A DNA stretch of 11,317 nucleotides from Hyphomonas sp. (lineage in GTDB: Bacteria > Pseudomonadota > Alphaproteobacteria > Caulobacterales > Hyphomonadaceae). Position numbers and translations under genes: made by a program. The notes below the pieces were generated by a model. It worked only from the letters and a program-made list of their open reading frames with translations. It ran no database searches and was not told where the DNA came from. Location of the stretch: assembly GCA_024743015.1 (NCBI GenBank), contig JANSXJ010000094.1, positions 1-11,317 on the forward strand. Direction: 5' to 3'. Below are positions 1-11,317 of the stretch, one piece after another; position 1 is the stretch's first letter, and each line of letters begins with the position of its first letter.

Positions 1-1107
1 CAGCACGTAAGGCTTCGACATGTATGGGTCGCGCAGGACACGGGATCCCTGCCGATCGACAATCAGACAGGCCCGGCGAAAATCGCCAAACGCGATTGCC
101 GCTGCCCCGTTTGCAATATCAGGCATGTCTTCCAGCTCGGTCACAGGATAGCCGAGCACCGTCGATGCTTCACCGCCCGTTCCAGGCACCCACAGATAGC
201 GACCGTCGCCATCTTTCAGCTTTCTGACAATCGCGGCTGTGCGCCGGTTCATCAAAAACCGACCATTTGTACGAAACTGCGACTTAGGCGCATAAATCAG
301 GTCGATTAGCTGATCGCCAGCATCAGTCTGGGTAAAGTCCCCATCCAGCGCTCCGATCTTTCCCCGTTCGTGATTGGCGTCGCTGACAATGGTGTAATTC
401 AGCAATCCGCGCGGTTTGCTAACGCCGTCCCCCATAACGAAGGCAGCGCTTTCCTGAACGCTGAACGCCGTCTCGACCTCATCTGCGATCCATTCGTCAA
501 TATCTGCATATGCATCATCCAGCAGGGTCTGCGTTGCAGCCGGCATGGCATATATCTCGCCCGCCGGAAACTCTAACAGTTCCAGGTCATTGGTGACCGT
601 TTCGAACCGTGTATCGCGTTCATTGGCCCAGACTGCGCCAACGCCGAGCGAAACCGGCTTTCGGTAAGTCCCTGCCGAGGTCTGGCGTACCGACGCGATC
701 TGGCGCATGGGTGAGGCCTGCATGAGACGCGACTCAATCAAGCGATCGAGTTCTGGCGGCGCGAGATGGCCACCCTGCTCATCGGTCGTCGTCGAGAGCG
801 CTTTGGTATCAAGACTTGCAAAGCCGCTCTCATCGCCCTTACGCAAATATCTCGACCAGGCGGTTTGATGCTCCATGTGCTGTTCATTCACAGGGGCGTT
901 TTCCGGTCGCGCTGCCTTCAGGCTTAGCACATCGATGCGTTTATCGAGGCGCGCCAGTTTTTCATCCAGAAGCGTGTCTGCAGCGCCTTTCTGCTCCAGC
1001 TCCGCCAGGCGGGCATCATTGGTGTTCTTATAGGTTTCGAATGTCGCCAACAGTTCTGCGGCGATCGATTTAGCCTCGCTGGTCATAGCTTTGGTTTCCT
1101 TGGTCAT
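1..1107 (-). CDS. HK97-type major capsid protein, GTA-like (3' end beyond window)
   Basis: Main shell protein of the HK97-fold head, the counterpart of RcGTA gp5. The frame is open from the start to the window edge, giving 369 codons without a stop, so only the last few tens of residues should be missing. Residues about 12-62 are charged and helical, like the N-terminal scaffolding (delta) domain of HK97 capsids. Near residue 104 comes the typical junction ALSTTTDEQGGHLAPPE, where the prohead protease normally trims; after it comes the shell fold, with KPRGLLNY, RFLMNRRT, YLWVPG and a late GDFRRACLIVDRQG stretch. Two ATGs lie in tandem (first bases 1110 and 1107). The AAGGAG is only 2 nt from the first but 5 nt from the second, so I chose 1107. 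It starts about 20 bp after the protease stop, as expected in a head operon. The family assignment is by recognition of these motifs. Confidence 0.9.
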   Translation of the reverse strand, partial: MTKETKAMTSEAKSIAAELLATFETYKNTNDARLAELEQKGAADTLLDEKLARLDKRIDVLSLKAARPENAPVNEQHMEHQTAWSRYLRKGDESGFASLDTKALSTTTDEQGGHLAPPELDRLIESRLMQASPMRQIASVRQTSAGTYRKPVSLGVGAVWANERDTRFETVTNDLELLEFPAGEIYAMPAATQTLLDDAYADIDEWIADEVETAFSVQESAAFVMGDGVSKPRGLLNYTIVSDANHERGKIGALDGDFTQTDAGDQLIDLIYAPKSQFRTNGRFLMNRRTAAIVRKLKDGDGRYLWVPGTGGEASTVLGYPVTELEDMPDIANGAAAIAFGDFRRACLIVDRQGSRVLRDPYMSKPYVL

Positions 1108-1131
1108 CATTTCTCCTTCGGACCTAATTCT

Positions 1132-1554
1132 TCACATCAATTGGAATCTTGCGGCGGGCTGCATCGGTTCAGCCACCAGGGACACTTCAATAAGGTCGAT
1201 GTCGGCCAACAGGCGTCCGCCCGCGGTGCGGGTCGTCCAGAGCCGTGGCCGAAATCCGATCGACAGACCGTTCAATCCATCCCTCGCGAGCTTCGCCGCT
1301 GTTTCGCTTTCAATCAGCCCTCGAACGAACAACCCATGTCCGGTTTCGGTTAGACGCACCCACCGCCCCGCAACTGCCCCGCTGCGATGTTGCAAGAGCA
1401 TGGGTGGCGTGCCAGCGCGGAGGCTGCGCGAAAATGCGCCGGCGCGAATGATATCACCCGAGAGATCAGGACTGCCGAAGACCGCCGCGTACCCTTCAAT
1501 CAGGCTCGGCAGCGAATTATCGGATGGGCGTTGGAATCGCGCGGCATTGATCAT
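1132..1554 (-). CDS. HK97-family prohead protease (peptidase U35-like), GTA-like
   Basis: Maturation protease that removes the capsid scaffolding domain during head assembly. The 140-aa length fits the small GTA-type members of the family. Motifs seen: EGYAAVFGSPDLSGDII near residues 20-36, the LLQHRS motif with likely catalytic His56, LNGLSIGF with likely nucleophile Ser98, and DLIEVSLV with Glu123, a candidate third active-site residue. The roles of His, Ser and Glu follow the family; the numbering is mine. The start ATG shares ATGA with the portal stop (4-bp overlap, 1551-1554), implying translational coupling, and the only Shine-Dalgarno-like run (GAGG) is rather far upstream (10 nt). RcGTA has a small ORF (g3.5) between portal and protease; there is no room for it here. 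Confidence 0.92.
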   Translation of the reverse strand: MINAARFQRPSDNSLPSLIEGYAAVFGSPDLSGDIIRAGAFSRSLRAGTPPMLLQHRSGAVAGRWVRLTETGHGLFVRGLIESETAAKLARDGLNGLSIGFRPRLWTTRTAGGRLLADIDLIEVSLVAEPMQPAARFQLM

Positions 1555-2684
1555 GATCGACCAACCTCATTGCCCGCTTGCAAACCCAACATGATGCGCT
1601 TCTCGTCGTCGCTTAAAAAGTCTGCTCCCGATACGCGCGTCCAGAGTGCATCTCTCTCTGCCGCAAAGGCGGGCACCTGATCCACAATCGGGGTCACGTC
1701 TGCGTCTTCAAACCGCCCGCTTAGCCACACGCTGAGCGCATTAGCCGTCCTCTGCACCAGCGGTAAAATGGTGAGCCGCCAGAAGGCAGCGTGCGCCTCC
1801 TTGTAAGTCGCGTAGGTATTGTCACCAGGAATTCCCAGCAGCATAGGCGGCACCCCAAAGGCAAGCGCAATCTCGCGCGCGGCGGCATGACGCGTTTCAG
1901 CGAAATCCATCTCTGCGGGGGAAAGGCTCATCGGCTTCCAGTCGAGGCCGCCTTCGAGCAAGAGCGGTCGGCCAGCATTTGAAGCGCCGGTATGTTCAGA
2001 CGTCAGTTGTTCTTTTAGCCGATCAAATTGCTCATCGGTGAGGCGCCCGCCATCCTTGCCATACATTAGCGCACCTGACGGGCGCGCTGCATTGTCGATG
2101 AGCGATTTTGCCCATCCGGCAGACCCATTGTGCATATCAAGCGCGCGGCGTGCCGCCGACAGCGGGGACAGCCCATACGCGCTGCCGCCGGGATGATAAA
2201 GTTGCAGGTGCAGCACGGGCAGCCAGCCATCCGCGTCCCGTCCTATCAACCGCTCGCCCTTCTTTTGTCGCAGCGCATATCCAGAGACATGCCCACGGTC
2301 ATCCTGGCGCACACGAACGGCATCTGCGCGGAGACCGAATAGCCCGCGAGGGACTGTTTCCTCGGGCAAGGTCACCGCCTCTGCCCAAGCGTTTCCTGTG
2401 ATCTGCAGGTCAATGTAAAGCTGCTCGATCAGAGATTGCCCGGATTGTTCCGGTGACGGCTCTTTTATTAGCTTTTGCACGGCTTCATTTTGACATTGAA
2501 GCGCGATGGACGCTGCCGCTTCAGCGATCATTCGTGCGCAGCGATACACAATCGCATTGCCGGCATATCCTTCGCGCACAAGCGTGGCAGGATCCGTTCG
2601 GCCCCAATTCGCACCCGGCAAACCGGCCAATGCGATCCAGGACTCTCCACTTTTCATTTCTGGTTTGGACCAGGGCAGCTTCAT
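1551..2684 (-). CDS. HK97-family phage portal protein, GTA-like
   Basis: Portal ring subunit at the head vertex through which DNA is packaged; counterpart of RcGTA gp3. The chosen ATG gives 377 aa, close to the usual GTA portal length. Recognisable stretches include REGYAGNAIVYRCARMIAEA near residues 37-56, the LYHPGG/YGLSPLSAARRAL core in the middle, and the conserved FGVPPMLLGIPGDNTYATYKEA segment typical of HK97-type portals. A longer frame could start at a GTG with first base 2699, but GGAGAGG lies 3-9 nt before the ATG at 2684 and no ribosome site precedes the GTG, so the ATG is preferred. In known GTA clusters the terminase gene lies directly upstream. Here a two-gene plus-strand unit intervenes, so this gene needs its own promoter in the roughly 190-bp divergent gap or very long read-through from the terminase. 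Confidence 0.92.
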   Translation of the reverse strand: MKLPWSKPEMKSGESWIALAGLPGANWGRTDPATLVREGYAGNAIVYRCARMIAEAAASIALQCQNEAVQKLIKEPSPEQSGQSLIEQLYIDLQITGNAWAEAVTLPEETVPRGLFGLRADAVRVRQDDRGHVSGYALRQKKGERLIGRDADGWLPVLHLQLYHPGGSAYGLSPLSAARRALDMHNGSAGWAKSLIDNAARPSGALMYGKDGGRLTDEQFDRLKEQLTSEHTGASNAGRPLLLEGGLDWKPMSLSPAEMDFAETRHAAAREIALAFGVPPMLLGIPGDNTYATYKEAHAAFWRLTILPLVQRTANALSVWLSGRFEDADVTPIVDQVPAFAAERDALWTRVSGADFLSDDEKRIMLGLQAGNEVGRS

Positions 2685-2746
2685 AAGCCTCTCCGACACC
2701 GCTTACACGTCTCAACGCTACGGAATTTAGGCCCGCCGCGACCCCG

Positions 2747-2777
2747 CCGGATTCATTTCCGGTTTCTTAAGTTTTTT
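2747..2777 (+). terminator. Hairpin followed by T-rich run upstream of the ParA gene
   Basis: CCGGA and TCCGG (2747-2751 and 2758-2762) form a 5-bp stem with a 6-nt loop, followed on the plus strand by TTTCTTAAGTTTTTT. This has the shape of a weak intrinsic terminator for plus-strand transcripts arriving from the portal side. The short stem and interrupted T run keep confidence low. The remainder of the 2685-2875 divergent gap showed no convincing -35/-10 pair on either strand, although promoters for both flanking genes would be expected there. Confidence 0.3.
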
Positions 2778-2875
2778 CAGGCGATTTGATGGGTATGGAG
2801 TGTACTGGTTCCCCAGCCTGTGGGCGTGGGCAGCGTAATTTCTGACATCGGTACGTAGACAGAAAAGGGGCCTCA

Positions 2876-3784
2876 ATGCTCGGACGGGTCATTTCCGTTG
2901 CCAATTCAAAAGGCGGCGTGGGCAAAACAACAACAACGGTTTCACTGGCGGAGGCCTTCGCGGCTGAAGGCTACAAGACTCTGGTGGTCGATCTGGATAG
3001 CCAGGCCAACGCATCCTTGCTGATTTATGGCGAGAATGGCGATGAGCGCCTCTACGACGCGATCCATAATTACACCAATGTCTCTGATTATCTGCGCGAG
3101 AACTTTCTTGGCGAGTGTTTCGCGCACATGACGAAATTCATCGTTCCCCATGCGAGCGACGTCACATTCATGGGTAAGCCGCTTGACCTCTCGCTGGTAC
3201 CGGCGACGCCGGGACTGCGCCGGGCGGAGCGTGAGCTCATCTACATTCTGACCGAGCAAGGATATTCAATGACTGCGATCGAAGGCCGGGTTGGCCTTCG
3301 CCTGCGTCAGGATATGGCGGATCTCCGCAAACAATATGACGTCGTCATTTGTGACTGCCCCCCTGGAATCTCGGCGATGACAGAAGCAACGCTTTCCGCG
3401 TCCGATCTGATCATAGTCCCTACAATTCCGGACTTCATGTCGACGCTCGGCCTCGACCTCTTTACCGGCGATATAATCGAAAGTCTCAAAAAGCGCGGCC
3501 TGTCCAACCGGCCTGTCGTGCTGCCAACCAAGTTTGACGGGTCGGCGCATCAGAGCATCGTTCTCGACGCCATGCGCGATGGTGCGACCGATCCAGAAAG
3601 CGAGTATGACATCTTCCAGACCGTCATCCCGCAAAAATCTGACTTCGCAGCAAACCCCGTTGAGCTGGGTGCAAACCCGACACTCGCTCAGAAGTGGCCA
3701 GGGGATGCGCTGTCGACAGTGAATATGCTATATCAGGAAGTGCAAGCCCGACTCGCGGCGCAATCAGAACCGGCAGCAGCATAA
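2876..3784 (+). CDS. ParA/MinD-family ATPase, orphan type, inserted in the GTA head cluster
   Basis: A 302-aa deviant-Walker P-loop ATPase. Motifs seen: the Walker A KGGVGKTT at residues 12-19, with signature lysine Lys12 and P-loop Lys17; the A' motif VVDLDSQANAS at 37-47, with probable catalytic Asp41; Walker B DVVICDCP at 155-162; and the family segment VPTIPDFMSTLGLDLF at 182-197. It has no N-terminal helix-turn-helix, unlike plasmid ParA proteins that autorepress. Such ATPases bind DNA nonspecifically as ATP dimers and position plasmids, chromosomes, chemoreceptor arrays, carboxysomes or other cargo with a small partner. No ParB gene follows; instead a 141-aa gene begins 3 bp after the stop. 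The ATG follows AGGGG with about 6 nt spacing. The cargo is unknown. Lying between terminase and portal, on the opposite strand, suggests a link to the particle, but that is inference. Confidence 0.93.
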   Translation: MLGRVISVANSKGGVGKTTTTVSLAEAFAAEGYKTLVVDLDSQANASLLIYGENGDERLYDAIHNYTNVSDYLRENFLGECFAHMTKFIVPHASDVTFMGKPLDLSLVPATPGLRRAERELIYILTEQGYSMTAIEGRVGLRLRQDMADLRKQYDVVICDCPPGISAMTEATLSASDLIIVPTIPDFMSTLGLDLFTGDIIESLKKRGLSNRPVVLPTKFDGSAHQSIVLDAMRDGATDPESEYDIFQTVIPQKSDFAANPVELGANPTLAQKWPGDALSTVNMLYQEVQARLAAQSEPAAA

Positions 3785-3787
3785 ATC

Positions 3788-4213
3788 ATGGCCCTTATTC
3801 CAGACGGACGCAGCGCGCTTTCAGCTATCCTTGCGCATGAGTCCCTGTTTCCACGCGTCAAAGATTCAGACCTTTCCGCCGCAGCAATCAAACTGGCTCG
3901 AAAGCAAATTATTGCAGCAGGCCTGACGCGCGATGATTTGCTGACGCTCAAGGAGACGCTCGGCGAAGACATGTTTGAGAAAACACTTGATAGTCTGACC
4001 CCCTATCACGTGAAGCTTCTGGCGCGGCGACTGGATAAAACCGCGGCGGAAATCGAAGTGAATACAGGCAGCTCCGCCTTGTCTCACGTTCGAAAGATAC
4101 TGTCGGGAGATGCAACACCAAGCGCGGCTGCGGAACCCGCTGCAACCAGGGAAGAGCCTGCGCCCCCGAAAAACAAATACCTCGGTCGCAAAGCCTTTCG
4201 CACAGGACGCTAG
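3788..4213 (+). CDS. Small protein of unknown family, putative partner of the adjacent ParA-like ATPase
   Basis: I do not recognise this 141-aa protein. Residues about 8-108 look mostly helical and charged (for example SAAAIKLARKQIIAAG at 30-45 and YHVKLLARRLDKTAAEIE at 73-90). Residues about 109-127 form an Ala/Pro/Glu-rich, probably disordered linker. The C-terminus is strongly basic (KNKYLGRKAFRTGR, 128-141). There is no signal peptide or membrane segment, so it should be cytoplasmic. The start is 3 bp after the ATPase stop and has no clear Shine-Dalgarno of its own, which points to translational coupling. By position and build it resembles the small adaptor proteins that stimulate ParA-type positioning ATPases or link them to cargo, but I see no sequence similarity that proves this. 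Its TAG stop overlaps the convergent terminase stop within CTAG. Confidence 0.82.
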   Translation: MALIPDGRSALSAILAHESLFPRVKDSDLSAAAIKLARKQIIAAGLTRDDLLTLKETLGEDMFEKTLDSLTPYHVKLLARRLDKTAAEIEVNTGSSALSHVRKILSGDATPSAAAEPAATREEPAPPKNKYLGRKAFRTGR

Positions 4214-5526
4214 ATTGCCCGAATGCGCGGCGCGCCCTGTTTATTAAGCATAAGTGTCGTCACGGCCCAAACCAGTGCATCCACGCGGTCCGGTGACCCG
4301 ACAAACCCTTCCGCGCCGAACCTGCACATTTCGTCCTCCAGGGCGCTTAGAGCATTGAAGTGCGAAACCTTCCCGCGGGCATATAGCGCAGCCACAGGTG
4401 CCGCGCGGGCGCGTTTACCCAGCCGCGCATGAACCAGTTGGATCGGCATCGAACAATCCACGCTTTCAAGAACCGTGCGGACCATTTCGCCGCCCTGATT
4501 GGCCTCCGCGACGATACCGGACGCGCCTGCCTGTTTGGCAAGCGAAAGTGCGCGGGCCGCCCAGTCAGAGGGCTTTTCGCCCTGAACCGTCCCGTCCGCC
4601 AGGATGAAACAGCGCTCCCCGAATCCAGCGGCCTGGGTCTTGCCAGCAACAATAATCCCGCAAGCGTCCGACCCGGAATGCGCCGAAGCAGGCGGATCGA
4701 TCGCCACGATGACGTCGTCCATTTTCTCAGGGATCTGGCGGATCCGCGCCTGGTCAATGTCGCTGCGCAGCCAAAGCGCGCCGGCAAGGTCTTCCACAAG
4801 TTCGCCTTCCAGCTCCTGCCGGCCGAGCGTAGTCCCCGAATAGGCCGCTTCCATGCTCTCGACAAATCCTGGCGCAAGGTTGCCAAGATTATCCCGCGTG
4901 CCCCCTTTGGTAAGGACGGCTTCTCCTTCGACGAGTTTTCGAACAAGCGGGACCGGTCGCGGCGTAGTCGTCACCACACAGCGCGGATCGGCGCCAAGGC
5001 GTAAGCCAAGCTGCAAATTACTCCACACGGTTTCCCCTTTGGCCCAGACGCCAATCTCATCGCACCACGCCGCGTCGAATTGTGGCCCGCGCAGACTCTC
5101 CGGGTCTTCCGCGGAGAAGACATGCGCAACCGCACCATTTGACCATTCGAGCCTTCGGCGAGAGACATTGAAGTAAGGGCGTTCGCGCGACCGAGGCTCG
5201 ATGCTGCGAAGCCCCGAAGCGCCTTCAATCATCACCTCCCGAACATCGCCCAGCGTCGGACCGACCAGCGCGATCCGCGCATAACCCCCAAAACGCGCTG
5301 CGAACCGCGTCCACTCCGCTCCGGCGCGCGTTTTGCCGGCACCGCGTCCGCCCATGAACAGCCATGTCCGCCACTTGTCCGCGGGCGGTCTTTGCGGGTC
5401 GCGCGCCGTGAGCAAGAATGGCGCGTGTTGCAGACGAAGCGCCTGCGCGCGGTCCAGTTTTCTCGTGAATTCCAGGTGTTTGATCCACCAATCGCCCCAG
5501 GTGGGCGGGCCATACTCAACGTCCAT
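4210..5526 (-). CDS. Large terminase / DNA-packaging ATPase-nuclease, GTA-like (ORFg2 type)
   Basis: Motor that pumps DNA into proheads and cuts it at headful. The 438-aa protein has the full two-domain build. In the ATPase domain: Walker A GGRGAGKTR at 59-67, the FSAEDPESLRGPQFDAAW segment near 137-154, Walker B with CDE at 155-157, and coupling motif TTTP at 186-189. In the RNase H-like nuclease domain: AIDPPA with Asp277, the VAEANQGG segment with Glu341, and SPDRVDALVWA near 411-421 with Asp413/Asp416. The wording of these motifs is of the alphaproteobacterial GTA type rather than of a typical prophage. The start is constrained: an in-frame TAG lies four codons upstream of the ATG with no other start codon between, and no good ribosome site is visible. 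The gene follows the biotin carboxylase gene by 123 bp on the same strand; no small terminase gene fits in that gap. Confidence 0.95.
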   Translation of the reverse strand: MDVEYGPPTWGDWWIKHLEFTRKLDRAQALRLQHAPFLLTARDPQRPPADKWRTWLFMGGRGAGKTRAGAEWTRFAARFGGYARIALVGPTLGDVREVMIEGASGLRSIEPRSRERPYFNVSRRRLEWSNGAVAHVFSAEDPESLRGPQFDAAWCDEIGVWAKGETVWSNLQLGLRLGADPRCVVTTTPRPVPLVRKLVEGEAVLTKGGTRDNLGNLAPGFVESMEAAYSGTTLGRQELEGELVEDLAGALWLRSDIDQARIRQIPEKMDDVIVAIDPPASAHSGSDACGIIVAGKTQAAGFGERCFILADGTVQGEKPSDWAARALSLAKQAGASGIVAEANQGGEMVRTVLESVDCSMPIQLVHARLGKRARAAPVAALYARGKVSHFNALSALEDEMCRFGAEGFVGSPDRVDALVWAVTTLMLNKQGAPRIRAI

Positions 5527-5649: not shown

Positions 5650-7548
<1,899 letters not shown>

Positions 7549-7653
7549 TAGGCTTCGTCCTTAAACGTCTAGATTGCCGGCTGGCGATAAAGCCTTGCCC
7601 CAGCCTCCTCTTACCGCCTAAGCTATTCATGAGGAAAGAGTAAGGGGAAACAA

Positions 7654-7995
7654 ATGGCATATGCATCAGGCGTTCGCCTTAGCAGTCTGGCTGGAATTAT
7701 CGGGGCCGGAATTGGCGGCTATATCGGGTATACCCAGGCCGCAGATGTCAGCGATCTGACGCCGGTCAGCGGTGCGCTGATCCTTGGTGGCGTAGGCCTC
7801 GTCGCCGGGAGTGCTGGCGCTTTCCTTCTCAAGTCGCTGATGCAGTTTCTCATCTACGCCATTATGTTTGGCGTCGTGGTGTTCGTCTTCCAGAACCAGA
7901 TTGAGGCGATGACGGGGATCAATCCGTGTGACGCTACGATCGCGTTCTTGAGGGATCTCGGCTTACCTGTCGGTATGCTACCGGGCGTAGAATGA
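7654..7995 (+). CDS. Small multi-pass membrane protein of unknown function
   Basis: I do not recognise a family for this 113-aa protein. It has three likely membrane segments: about residues 10-28, rich in Gly/Ile/Ala with GxxxG-like spacing (GAGIGGYIG), about 40-59 (ALILGGVGLVAGSAGAFLL), and about 63-80 (MQFLIYAIMFGVVVFVF). A short tail of about 30 residues follows with a single Cys. The glycine-zipper pattern suggests tight helix packing. The start is well supported by AAGGGG six bases upstream of the ATG. It is divergent from the carboxylase alpha subunit gene (105-bp gap) and convergent with the hydratase, whose stop is 1 bp away, so it is embedded in the liu locus on the opposite strand. 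Nothing ties it to leucine metabolism. Confidence 0.82.
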   Translation: MAYASGVRLSSLAGIIGAGIGGYIGYTQAADVSDLTPVSGALILGGVGLVAGSAGAFLLKSLMQFLIYAIMFGVVVFVFQNQIEAMTGINPCDATIAFLRDLGLPVGMLPGVE

Positions 7996-7996
7996 T

Positions 7997-8791
7997 CTAA
8001 CTGGCCCAATCGGGTTTGCGCTTTTCAAGGAAGGCTGCCAGCCCCTCCTTGCCTTCTTCGCTGGTGCGTCGTTCGGCAATACGTTTGGCCGTCGCGCGGC
8101 TCAGCGCGGGGCCGAATGGCTCGTCCGCGAAGTCCAGCACCAGATTCTTGGCATCGCGAATCGCTCCAGGCGCCGCCCCCATAGCCAGGTCGGCAATGTG
8201 TTCTTCCATGCCCGCAAGCTCTTCGAGATCTGAAACAACATACTGAACCAGTCCAATTTTCTCAGCGTAATCCGCGTCGAACACTTCCGCTGTCACAAAT
8301 AAGGCCTTTGCCCAGCGCGGACCGATCGCGCTGATCACGAAGGGCGAAATCGTTGCCGGTGTCAGCCCAAGCCGAACCTCGCTGAATCGGAATTTGGTTC
8401 CCTTGACTGCTACGGCGACGTCGCAAGCTGCAACCAAACCTGCGCCGCCGCCCATCGCCGCTCCCTGCACGAGCGCCAAGGTCATTTGAGGCAGCTCGGC
8501 GAGTTTTCGGAGCATTTCCGCGAGCGCCAACGCATCCTGCTCATTGTCTTCGCGCGTCCAGTGCTGGGCTGCTTTCATCCATTCGAGATCGGCTCCGGCT
8601 GAGAAGCTTTTCCCCGCCCCGCGCAGGATCACCATTCTCAGCGTATCCTGCTCTTCAAGCGTTTCCAGCGCGTCGGTCAGCTCTTCGATGACCTGACTAT
8701 TAAAGGCATTGTGTTTGTCGGGCCGGTTCAGCGTCAGAATTGCAATTCCGGCGCGGGTCGCATCGAGGCTGATGGTTTCGTATTGGCTCAT
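7997..8791 (-). CDS. liuC: Enoyl-CoA hydratase/crotonase family, probable methylglutaconyl-CoA hydratase
   Basis: Probably hydrates 3-methylglutaconyl-CoA to HMG-CoA, the step after the carboxylase in leucine breakdown. The 264-aa length is standard for crotonases. Motifs seen: LNRPDKHNAF at 21-30, the first oxyanion-hole segment FSAGADLEWM at 63-72, the second GAAMGGGAGL at 110-119, and SEVRLGLTPATISPFV at 137-152, with Glu138 matching the first catalytic Glu of rat crotonase. By my hand alignment the second catalytic Glu position is Ala163. I recall this as usual for bacterial LiuC/AtuE-like members, but could not check it. The GADLEWM wording and the position between the two carboxylase subunits support the specific call; a general enoyl-CoA hydratase is the alternative. 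AGGAG lies about 6 nt before the ATG. The gene is preceded by an intrinsic terminator, so it probably has its own promoter. Confidence 0.88.
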   Translation of the reverse strand: MSQYETISLDATRAGIAILTLNRPDKHNAFNSQVIEELTDALETLEEQDTLRMVILRGAGKSFSAGADLEWMKAAQHWTREDNEQDALALAEMLRKLAELPQMTLALVQGAAMGGGAGLVAACDVAVAVKGTKFRFSEVRLGLTPATISPFVISAIGPRWAKALFVTAEVFDADYAEKIGLVQYVVSDLEELAGMEEHIADLAMGAAPGAIRDAKNLVLDFADEPFGPALSRATAKRIAERRTSEEGKEGLAAFLEKRKPDWAS

Positions 8792-8825
8792 TCGGATCTC
8801 CTGAAGAGATCACTCTATAGCGTAT

Positions 8826-8839
8826 TTCGCCGAAGCGAA
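8826..8839 (-). other. Small hairpin with UUCG tetraloop in the hydratase leader
   Basis: On the minus strand TTCGC-TTCG-GCGAA forms a 5-bp stem closed by the very stable C(UUCG)G loop, about 35 bp before the hydratase start. No T run follows, so it is not a terminator. A TATAGA sequence just downstream could be a -10 element, but no matching -35 was found. Confidence 0.3.
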
Positions 8840-8856
8840 GGCTTTTCACCCGCGAC

Positions 8857-8887
8857 AAAAAACGAAACGCCCGCGAAAACCGCGAGC
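8857..8887 (-). terminator. Intrinsic terminator after the second EF-hand gene
   Basis: Read on the minus strand, GCTCGCG-GTTTT-CGCGGGC (8887 to 8869) makes a 7-bp GC-rich stem with one G-U pair, followed by GTTTCGTTTTTT. It lies about 40 bp after the EF-hand gene stop and before the hydratase gene, so the EF-hand genes and the hydratase are likely separate transcripts. Confidence 0.7.
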
Positions 8888-8927
8888 GCTTCCTTGGAGA
8901 GTCGTGGGGTCTAGAAAAGCAGAGCGT

Positions 8928-9233
8928 TTACGAAGACCGCTCTTTGTCCTTGTCACCATGCTTTTTCTTTTTGCTGGCTTTTACGGCTGCTTCGAACTCG
9001 GCCAGTGTCATTTCGCCATCGTCGCCCGCAACCTTGGCGAATTTCGCACCGGCTTCCTCGGCGCTGTGCTTACCGTCGGCAGTCTTGTAGGCGACATATT
9101 CGGCCTGCGTGATCACGCCGCTCGCGTCAGCGTCGATCTTGTTGAAGTAATCGGCTGGTGATCCGGCATGAGCAACAGCAAACGCGCTGGCGGCAAACAG
9201 ACCGAACGCACCGGTCAAAAGTTTGGTTTTCAT
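8928..9233 (-). CDS. Small exported EF-hand protein (one canonical, one degenerate loop)
   Basis: A 101-aa protein with a clear signal peptide (MKTKLL, hydrophobic core, cleavage probably after AHA at residue 23), so it is probably periplasmic or secreted. The first calcium-binding loop is canonical (DADASGVITQAE, 34-45). The second region (KVAGDDGEMTLAE, 67-79) lacks the Asp at loop position 1 and, aligned with the neighbouring paralogue, is one residue short, so it may not bind calcium. The tail is rich in Lys (KKKKHGDKDK). I chose the ATG at 9233 because GGAGG stands about 8 nt upstream and a signal peptide follows at once; the longer open frame upstream has no such support. The gene is followed by an intrinsic terminator and preceded by a long inverted repeat, so it is probably its own regulated unit. 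The precise role is unknown. Confidence 0.87.
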   Translation of the reverse strand: MKTKLLTGAFGLFAASAFAVAHAGSPADYFNKIDADASGVITQAEYVAYKTADGKHSAEEAGAKFAKVAGDDGEMTLAEFEAAVKASKKKKHGDKDKERSS

Positions 9234-9265
9234 CGAAAGTTCCTCCCTGGAACAGTTTGAGTGAG

Positions 9266-9285
9266 CGCCCTTGAAAGGGAGGCGC
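9266..9285 (-). other. Short stem-loop between the inverted repeat and the EF-hand start
   Basis: CCCT-TGAA-AGGG, extended by GCG/CGC across a small bulge, can fold in the presumed 5' leader of the EF-hand gene, about 35 nt before its start codon. It might affect mRNA stability or translation. There is no independent support. Confidence 0.25.
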
Positions 9286-9323
9286 ACTACAGATGTAACA
9301 ATCTTGCGTGTTACATTTGTAGT
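9286..9323. promoter_or_regulatory. 15-bp imperfect inverted repeat, putative operator
   Basis: Arms at 9286-9300 (ACTACAGATGTAACA) and 9309-9323 (TGTTACATTTGTAGT) are reverse complements at 14 of 15 positions, separated by 8 bp. The repeat lies 53-90 bp upstream of the downstream EF-hand start, in an AT-richer stretch than its surroundings. A further similar half-like element (TTACCATTTTGTAA) follows directly at 9324-9337. This is the expected size and place for a dimeric transcription factor site; the regulator is unknown. Confidence 0.5.
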
Positions 9324-9354
9324 TACCATTTTGTAATGATCCGTTTCAGCATGC

Positions 9355-9380
9355 GAGGAGCCCGCGCTTACGGGCTCCTC
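9355..9380 (-). terminator. Perfect 10-bp hairpin after the first EF-hand gene
   Basis: GAGGAGCCCG (9355-9364) and CGGGCTCCTC (9371-9380) pair perfectly around a 6-nt loop, about 28 bp past the EF-hand stop. Neither strand has a T run next to it, so it may be a transcript-end stabilising hairpin or a U-poor terminator rather than a classical intrinsic terminator. Confidence 0.5.
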
Positions 9381-9408
9381 ATCAGGTATCAAGAGGATTG
9401 CTCGCGCC

Positions 9409-9693
9409 TTACATTTGCTTGTCGGAGTCAGGCTCTTCTTCTGATTTTTGCACTCTGGCTGCGTCCATTTCGGCTTCCGAAATCATACCGCTCGCGTCGG
9501 TGTCGATTTCAATGAACTTGATCAGTGCATCCGCGGGCGACATCTCGCCGTTGCTTGTCTTCCAGCTAACAAACTCGCTTTCAGAAACGAAGCCATCTTT
9601 ATTGGCGTCGACAGTCTGGAACGTTACGTCTTCTCCCGCGGACGCAGCAAATGCGCAAGCCGAGAAGCCTAACAGCAAAAAATAACGGGTCAT
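9409..9693 (-). CDS. Small exported EF-hand protein with two canonical calcium loops
   Basis: A 94-aa protein with an N-terminal signal sequence (MTRYFLLLGF..., probable cleavage after ASA at residue 19). Cys13 in FSAC is a poor lipobox, so lipoprotein processing is possible but less likely. Both EF-hand loops match the 12-residue consensus: DANKDGFVSESE at 29-40 and DTDASGMISEAE at 64-75. The tail is acidic (EEEPDSD). The segment between the loops (FVSWKTSNGEMSPADALIKF) matches YVAYKTADGKHSAEEAGAKF of the next gene in spacing and several residues, so the two are probably tandem paralogues. The ATG at 9693 is chosen because GGAG lies 6 nt upstream and the signal peptide begins there. Calcium binding in the periplasm or outside is likely; its job is unknown. 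It is separated from the carboxyltransferase gene by 240 bp. Confidence 0.87.
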   Translation of the reverse strand: MTRYFLLLGFSACAFAASAGEDVTFQTVDANKDGFVSESEFVSWKTSNGEMSPADALIKFIEIDTDASGMISEAEMDAARVQKSEEEPDSDKQM

Positions 9694-9933
9694 GGTATTC
9701 TCCAATTCAATCACACCACTTCGTGTGGCGTCCCTGAAACTGCCTGCCCCAATGGCCAAAAACCCGTGACGATTCCGAAAGCTGGATGACGCGTTGTTCA
9801 CGACAATTCCGCAGGAATAGTGTGTATGCCCGCCAATACGCCGTGACTCATCGTGAGCTGCGAGTGTTTGCTCACGCTTTGCTGGTGCAGGTTATCCGAG
9901 AATTAATCCGCGGGTGCGTCAGCCCGCAGTATC
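9694..9933. other. Intergenic region between carboxyltransferase and EF-hand genes
   Basis: No gene is seen here. It contains a 5-bp GC stem (GCGGG/CCCGC, 9910-9927) just after the carboxyltransferase stop, which might be a weak terminator but has only a short AT run after it. It also has a perfect 7-bp inverted repeat CGTGAGC/GCTCACG with an 11-nt loop (9852-9876). A promoter for the EF-hand gene would be expected, but I found no convincing -35/-10 pair. Confidence 0.4.
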
Positions 9934-11317
9934 TTACATTCGGAAAACGCCGAATCCACGCTCATCAAACGGTGCGTTCAACGCTGCGGAGAGCGCAAGC
10001 CCCAGAACGCGGCGAGAGTCGGCCGGATCGATAATCCCATCATCCCATAGGCGCGCCGTAGAATAGTAAGGCGAACCTTCATGCTCATAGAGATCGCGGA
10101 TCGGGGCTTTGAACGCTTCTTCTTCATCCGCGGACCAGTTTTCTCCGCGACGTTCCATGCCATCGCGTTTGACGGTGGCCAGCACCGATGCCGCCTGCTC
10201 GCCACCCATTACGGAGATGCGGGCATTTGGCCACATGAACATAAACCGCGGACTATAAGCGCGGCCGCACATCCCATAGTTTCCAGCCCCGAAAGAGCCA
10301 CCCGTGACCAAGGTTAGTTTGGGCACCGACGCCGTTGCCACAGCGGTCACCATCTTTGCGCCGTCCTTGGCGATACCTCCGGCCTCATATTTCGAGCCGA
10401 CCATAAAGCCGGTCAGATTTTGCAGAAACAGCAGTGGGATGCGGCGCTGATCGGCCAGTTCTATAAAGTGCGCGGCCTTTTGCGCGCTTTCGCTGAACAA
10501 GATCCCATTATTCGCCAGGATGGCAACGGGCATCCCATAGAGATGGGCGAAACCACACACCAGCGTATCGCCGTAAAGCTTCTTGAACTCGTGAAATTCA
10601 GATCCGTCGACCAGTCGCGCGATCACCTCTCGGGCATCGTAAGGTTCGCGAACGTCCTGAGGGACCAATCCATGCAGCTCAGCCGGGTCATAGAGCGGTT
10701 CCGAGGGCTCCTGCAAACCCACTGTTGCTGGCTTGGGAAGATGCAGCGTCCGCACGATGGAGCGCACAATCGCGAGCGCATGATCATCATTGGCCGCATA
10801 GTGATCTGCCACCCCGGATTGCCGGGCGTGGACGTCGGCACCGCCAAGGTCTTCAGCGGAGATTTCTTCGCCAGTCGCAGCTTTTACGAGCGGCGGTCCG
10901 CCGAGGAAGATCGTCCCTTGCTTGCGGACAATCACGGTTTCGTCCGACATGGCCGGGACATAGGCCCCGCCCGCCGTGCACGACCCCATAACTGAGGCGA
11001 TCTGAGGAATGCCTTTCGCGCTCATATTGGCTTGATTGTAGAAGATCCGCCCGAAATGCTCTCGGTCTGGAAAGATCTCGGATTGATGAGGGAGGTTCGC
11101 GCCGCCGCTATCGACCAGATAGATGCACGGCAAATTGTTCTGTTCCGCGATCTCCTGCGCGCGCAGGTGTTTTTTCACGGTCATCGGATAGTAAGTGCCG
11201 CCTTTGACGGTGGCGTCGTTACAGACGATCACGCATTCGCGCCCTTCCACCCTGCCGACGCCAGCGATCATGCCTGCACCAGGTGCTTCATTGTCGTACA
11301 TGTCGTGAGCTGCGAGC
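9934..11317 (-). CDS. liuB: Methylcrotonyl-CoA carboxylase beta subunit (carboxyltransferase), 5' end beyond window
   Basis: Transfers CO2 from biotin to 3-methylcrotonyl-CoA. The frame is open to the window edge (460 codons plus stop), and about 75 N-terminal residues should lie outside, judging by the usual length of about 535. Motifs seen: [14 protein letters not shown] at the start of the visible part, [18 protein letters not shown], the [10 protein letters not shown] segment, [31 protein letters not shown], and the C-terminal [16 protein letters not shown] and [16 protein letters not shown]. These wordings are characteristic of the methylcrotonyl-CoA enzyme rather than propionyl-CoA carboxylase beta. 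With the hydratase and alpha subunit downstream, the order follows the known liuB-C-D arrangement, but with two EF-hand genes inserted. An upstream isovaleryl-CoA dehydrogenase gene would be expected beyond the window. Confidence 0.95.

Follow-up and report, generated by a model that had tools for sequence, protein, structure and literature searches.

A ParA–partner gene pair between the terminase and portal genes of a gene transfer agent–like cluster outlives the cluster and is a candidate cellular positioning system

A stretch of 11,317 nucleotides from a member of the Hyphomonadaceae (contig JANSXJ010000094.1; hereafter the window) carries, on its plus strand, a gene for a ParA-type ATPase followed by one for a small partner protein. 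The pair sits between the terminase and portal genes, both on the minus strand, of a head cluster that is assigned to the gene transfer agent (GTA) type by homology and gene order (Table 1). Partner and terminase genes are arranged head-on, with stop codons that overlap by 4 bases, and the ParA and portal genes diverge from an interval of 176 bp. An earlier note on this DNA had described a two-gene unit on the opposite strand with its flanking genes intact, and the open reading frames and Pfam matches bear this out. Alphaproteobacterial GTA genes follow a usual order, and the flanks of the pair share the succession terminase, portal, protease and capsid with RcGTA-type clusters. In contrast to the genes of those clusters, the pair lies on the other strand, is absent from most such clusters sampled and outlives them.

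Relatives of the pair were surveyed in an order sample of 398 genomes, with genus sets of 42 Hyphomonas genomes and 29 genomes of the window's genus. The partner is encoded at 49 places in 48 of the 398 genomes, which belong to three genera, and the orthologous ParA is found at 49 places in the same 48 genomes, with scores of 535–585 bits compared to 207 bits for the next ParA. Because the two recur together in this manner, the pair reflects neither chance nor an assembly error, and judged by sequence similarity it is a sharply bounded family. Terminase, by comparison, was detected in 317 of the 398 genomes. Within Hyphomonas, 41 of the 42 genomes encode the partner, whereas a capsid gene is present in 20 (in one as a fragment) and a terminase gene in 29 (25 long, 4 fragmentary); the pair is retained in 21 of the 42 without a capsid gene. 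The only Hyphomonas genome lacking the partner, G337, has a terminase fragment that ends its contig, so this miss is likely an assembly gap. In the window's genus, the pair occurs in 10 genomes (in one, G021, as two fragments at contig edges) and the capsid in 20: both are present in 5 genomes, only the pair in 5, only the capsid in 15 and neither in 4. Clusters without the pair are therefore common in this genus, and no positive association between pair and capsid is seen there (capsid in 5/10 genomes with the pair and 15/19 without; Fisher p 0.20, relatedness ignored). Single-contig genomes show the same states, with the pair present and both capsid and terminase absent in G211, and with pair and terminase present and the capsid absent in G309 and G009. 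Five contigs titled Acidobacteria, Sulfopaludibacter or Rhodobacterales (L088, L089, L096, L099 and L101) bear the Hyphomonas pair; their titles look wrong.

Gene neighborhoods were read at 45 of the 49 pair places, the window included (all but those of G133, G221, G226 and G370). Pair copies in G021 and G399–G402 fall outside the loci read, and loci L179, L190, L196 and L197 stop near a contig edge. Terminase and portal flank the pair on both sides at 20 of the 45 loci and on one side only at 9, and 16 loci have no terminase, portal or capsid match of at least 100 bits. The DnaJ gene that belongs to the far flank of the cluster lies nearby at 15 of these 16; the sixteenth is a copy in a satellite-like element described below. 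Wherever terminase, portal, protease or capsid matches were found in the 44 relatives' loci, they lie on the strand opposite to the pair. When capsid state is mapped on a tree of the pair-bearing ParAs, at least 12 changes are needed, and a clade of eight Hyphomonas lacks the capsid throughout; in this labeling, G357 was scored capsid-positive from an 84-residue fragment and two g8 genomes were scored from the reading of their loci.

Among pair-bearing relatives, the median ratio of nonsynonymous to synonymous differences per site (pN/pS) is 0.045 for ParA, 0.247 for the partner, 0.365 for terminase, 0.257 for portal, 0.195 for capsid and 0.102 for biotin carboxylase (4–6 sequences per gene). 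Since pS is similar throughout (0.65–0.73), the pair shows no sign, in this set, of being younger than its neighbors. The dN/dS for ParA is 0.02–0.09 in capsid-less groups wherever dS is below 1; the loci in these dN/dS comparisons were picked by hand. ParA is unusually conserved, with a constraint unlike that of its GTA neighbors, and the GTA cluster decays around a strongly constrained passenger. The pair also has conserved sequence of its own upstream. AAATCTG[CG] occurs at −46 to −54 in 30 of 32 Hyphomonas loci, where random windows predict 0.22, and a different block, located in the window 5′ of the ParA gene, recurs in 8 of 10 loci of the window's genus, both with and without GTA genes; it is weaker in the satellite copy L044 and was not found in L051. 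The block probably belongs to a promoter region of the pair itself.

These data bear directly on the candidate idea of the earlier note that the pair positions GTA assembly sites or packaging on the nucleoid, taken here to cover placement of capsids or of the GTA locus as well. The conservation of its place and orientation inside the cluster across three genera would favor such a role. A GTA component should, however, be lost together with its cluster, and by the Hyphomonas counts given above the pair is not; many genomes retain it without GTA genes, pair and capsid show no positive association in the window's genus, and ParA is under a constraint unlike that of GTA genes. Moreover, a transcript of the cluster would be antisense to the pair. 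We found nothing that points to GTA capsids as cargo and regard a GTA role as very unlikely. The expectation that the pair always lies in GTA clusters likewise fails among the relatives searched, as the GTA-less loci and the extra copy in the satellite-like element show; this is largely what the note had named as refuting its idea, close homologues commonly found away from such clusters. The alternative it offered, that of an unrelated cassette, belongs to the parts that are supported. More generally, a gene that lies within a GTA cluster need not belong to the GTA.

A single GTA transcript running from terminase to portal would cross the whole ParA pair antisense (4210-5526 compared to 2876-4213), and GTA induction might therefore silence the pair.

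The ATPase matches AAA_31 (118 bits) and CbiA in Pfam and combines a KGGVGKT P-loop with the ParA fold, as is characteristic of ParA/MinD (deviant Walker A) ATPases. K12, K17, D41 and D160, corresponding to the signature and catalytic lysines and the motif-2 and Walker B aspartates, are present in 23/23 aligned orthologues. With a P-loop that begins at residue 11, the protein has no room for an N-terminal DNA-binding domain, the domain that precedes the P-loop in type Ia plasmid ParAs. Catalytically complete by its motifs, single-domain and accompanied by a constant small partner, ParA has the build of a cargo-positioning ATPase; in this respect the earlier note, which had listed the same four residues, the missing domain and a partner other than ParB, was correct on each point.

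An AlphaFold2 model of the partner, based on 49 sequences, consists of a confident helical domain, a segment of very low confidence and a low-confidence tail. The tail motif Y[LIF]GR[KR]xFR is present in 49/49 aligned partners, which range from 139 to 214 residues, and, with V also allowed, in 120/120 listed partner homologues. In these 120 proteins, the median net charge is −1 for the first 20 residues and +6 for the last 20. A protein search returned 177 homologues, and the organism names among the 120 listed are Hyphomonas, Henriciella, Hyphomonadaceae or "Pseudomonadota" only. The family is unnamed in Pfam. DIMCO_N (PF16844) was matched at E values up to 0.1 by 37 of 49 partners (residues 50–110 in the window), one relative, P0037, has a precomputed PF16844 assignment, and the window partner scores 24.1 bits, under the cut-off of 36.7. 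Searches of solved and viral structures gave no match. A literature search of titles and abstract openings, its scope excluding most subscription papers and all bioRxiv preprints, found no description of the ParA–partner pair. The partners define a ParA partner family that is nearly universal in Hyphomonas.

Such a pair could be a DNA-partition cassette that segregates a DNA locus, with the partner as a divergent centromere-binding protein. ParA itself is partition-like: it matches PHROG 164 ("ParA-like partition protein") and has plasmid relatives, the best 12 listed at 28–32% identity. The partner fits this role poorly, as it has no ParB-type family match and no DNA-binding family at or above the cut-off in Pfam, and no match at E 0.01 in 72,556 plasmid and 50,697 phage records. 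Unlike chromosomal ParA/Soj of ParABS (M. xanthus ParA 8RAY, Soj 2BEK), the window ParA has no adjacent ParB; its partner is a different helical protein with the basic motif at the C terminus, and the genome keeps a separate chromosomal parA–parB elsewhere, with a true parB beside another parA. We therefore rate a partition cassette lowest among the readings considered here.

The position of the pair also raises the question of how it came to lie there. Among 13 terminase loci from pair-less genomes, 10 have a terminase–portal gap of 0–167 bp, two g4 loci (L171 and L172) hold another gene in a gap of 0.9–1.0 kb, and one is cut off by a contig end ahead of the portal. In the window's genus, the gap is 25–167 bp in 6 of the 7 pair-less loci read, the seventh stopping at a contig edge. 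A further 40 junctions were taken non-randomly from the listed terminase places; 3 lacked a portal match, and 6 of the 37 scored contain inserted genes (L210, L214, L220, L221, L234 and L235), four of them a similar protein of 143–157 amino acids (judged by eye), one a helix-turn-helix gene and one unknown genes. Gaps of more than 300 bp are also present in L218, where the portal start was misread, and in L232, where no clear gene was seen; neither was scored as an insert. The inserts in L171 and L172 and in these six junctions show that accessory genes have repeatedly entered the terminase–portal junction in the order, where the pair is the most widespread insert observed. As it occupies the junction in the same orientation in three genera, one insertion before the genera diverged is the simplest history.

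An insertion hot spot invites the reading that the pair is a cargo module, of anti-phage or mobile-element type, that reached this site as did other accessory genes, one of which, in L171, matches a candidate-defense model (77.5 bits). A second copy of the pair in G016 (contig C5, locus L044; also L065) is consistent with this, since it lies in a phage-satellite-like stretch with genes for a tyrosine integrase, Toprim_3, DUF3987 and a Terminase_4 small terminase, beside a SIR2-like gene, and the patchy presence of the pair in the window's genus points the same way. The near-universal partner in Hyphomonas and the low pN/pS of ParA are, however, unlike fast-turning defense cargo. Among PADLOC models, none is matched by the partner, and the ParA hits, to a single candidate family, are weak (26 and 22 bits) and fall near the P-loop. 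A defense or mobile-element function is accordingly unlikely in our estimate.

Related ParA–partner units exist away from GTA genes. In another family of the order, "type C" loci L156–L159 encode a ParA and then a homologous partner, as in the window; a comparison of the 49 window-type partners with 24 sister-type homologues scored 95.7% (E 9e-9, 108 columns), and the sister-type partners have their own conserved basic C-terminal segment (24/24). Unlike the window, these loci gave no match to terminase, portal, protease or capsid, and neither did any other of the 20 sister loci fetched. The sister ParAs score only about 200 bits against the window ParA family model. A Robl_LC7-like gene lies just downstream in L156–L158 (a sub-threshold match, tested in L157) and an MHYT-like protein is encoded upstream (Pfam-confirmed in L157); L157 also carries a PBP-OmpA protein. 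A further, "type B" ParA–partner pair was observed in L143–L155 and L162, with a full partner ending in RDxKxFxY in 12 of 14 loci. In several f1 loci, a pyridine-nucleotide-disulphide oxidoreductase gene lies upstream of it (Pfam-checked in L145), and f3 loci have this pair as well. No second ParA like that of type B was detected at E 1e-40 in genomes with the window's pair.

Retention of the pair after loss of the GTA cluster makes it probable that its task in the cell is to arrange something else, and on balance we favor, with some reservation, a two-component ParA–adaptor positioning system at the service of the cell rather than of the GTA. In such a system, ATP-bound ParA dimers would coat the nucleoid, as in ParA biology generally, and the helical domain of the partner would bind one cargo. 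A flexible linker would present the basic C-terminal tail to the ParA dimer; the tail would stimulate ATP hydrolysis, and the cargo would follow the resulting ParA gradient. The tail is proposed as the ParA-contacting peptide by analogy with ParA–ParB, in which a short motif centered on an Arg or Lys is described as binding the ParA dimer and triggering hydrolysis (PMC12462528), and with McdB, whose basic N terminus is described as acting likewise (PMC12204374). The pair differs from McdA–McdB carboxysome positioning in that no carboxysome gene is among those identified in the window and the partner lacks the basic N-terminal ParA-binding peptide of McdAB-type partners (PMC12204374). The ParB of this genome starts MSPAKQSRLGKGLSALI, where L-G-K resembles the L-G-R of the partner tail ([LIF]-G-R) at the opposite end of the protein. 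With the contacting peptide at the C terminus and a linker in front of it, the partner would represent a variation on the usual layout. Instead of being a transport device, the pair could conceivably act as a regulator, namely a FleN-like anti-activator with its partner docking on a transcription factor; this is distinctly unlikely, although less so than a GTA role or a partition cassette, and all three are less likely than the positioning system.

Several observations weigh against the positioning system. Known ParA partners are described as usually exposing a basic N terminus, not a C terminus (PMC12204374, PMC10241942). Beyond the GTA locus and its flanks no neighbors tied to the pair, and no cargo, were found. 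Presence in 10 of 29 genomes of the window's genus is unusual for a housekeeping system, and a copy on a satellite-like element by a SIR2-like gene suits a defense or mobile-element role. The partner itself is loosely constrained. Six comparisons made inside two capsid-less groups of Hyphomonas gave it a dN/dS of 0.27–0.51, and the two G016 copies gave 0.10 (the reported partner values leave out the largest capsid-less group); the partner's pN/pS is like that of portal and capsid, so that only ParA stands out. Finally, similar ParAs in L160 and L161, 2 of 6 sister loci, showed no such partner.

A more specific proposal, a long shot at best, sees in the pair a second ParA system of the stalked budding Hyphomonas, dedicated to transport: a new class of adaptor would fire ParA via a C-terminal tail, and the system would move or dock a large cargo on its way to the bud. 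It might contribute to the second chromosome-transfer step or to the missing pole-marking factors of H. neptunium, a link that is a possibility only. Hyphomonas has a tractable model species, and in H. neptunium both the passage of the chromosome through the stalk, reported as a second segregation step of unknown mechanism, and the pole-marking factors are described as open questions (PMC6650430). The same source describes a stalk without DNA before that step, where any nucleoid-gradient ParA would also be hindered. Henriciella is not known to bud, and the presence of the pair there counts against a purely budding-specific role.

Table 1. Features of the window and of comparison loci (locus names precede coordinates outside the window)
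Feature	Position	Strand	Remarks
ParA-type ATPase, 302 aa	2876..3784	+	Walker A KGGVGKT residues 12-18; open reading frame list and Pfam
Partner (putative adaptor), 141 aa	3788..4213	+	Helical domain 7-106, low-confidence 113-126 (likely disordered linker), conserved basic tail 128-141
Tail codons for KNKYLGRKAFRTGR (putative ParA-contacting peptide)	4169..4210	+	Conserved C-terminal tail of partner
Block upstream of ParA, TTTCCxxTTTxTTAA and following bases	2756..2796	+	Probably part of the pair's promoter region
GTA-type large terminase, 438 aa	4210..5526	-	Terminase_6N/6C
GTA-type portal	1551..2699	-	Phage_portal
HK97-type prohead protease	1132..1554	-	Peptidase_S78
HK97-type major capsid protein, truncated at window edge	1..1110	-	Phage_capsid
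Biotin carboxylase, enoyl-CoA hydratase, carboxyltransferase genes	5650-7548, 7997-8791, 9934-11301		Upstream of GTA cluster
Trypsin-like protein	L171 8644-9552		Junction insert (g4); candidate-defense model match
Unknown gene	L172 8542-9429		Junction insert (g4)
Phage-satellite-like stretch, ~10.7 kb, ends not mapped	L044 4402-15070		Adjoins tRNA-Ser(CGA)

On the far side of the terminase, the biotin carboxylase, enoyl-CoA hydratase and carboxyltransferase genes (5650-11301), which we take to be methylcrotonyl-CoA carboxylase-like, hold the same place upstream of the GTA cluster in several relatives.
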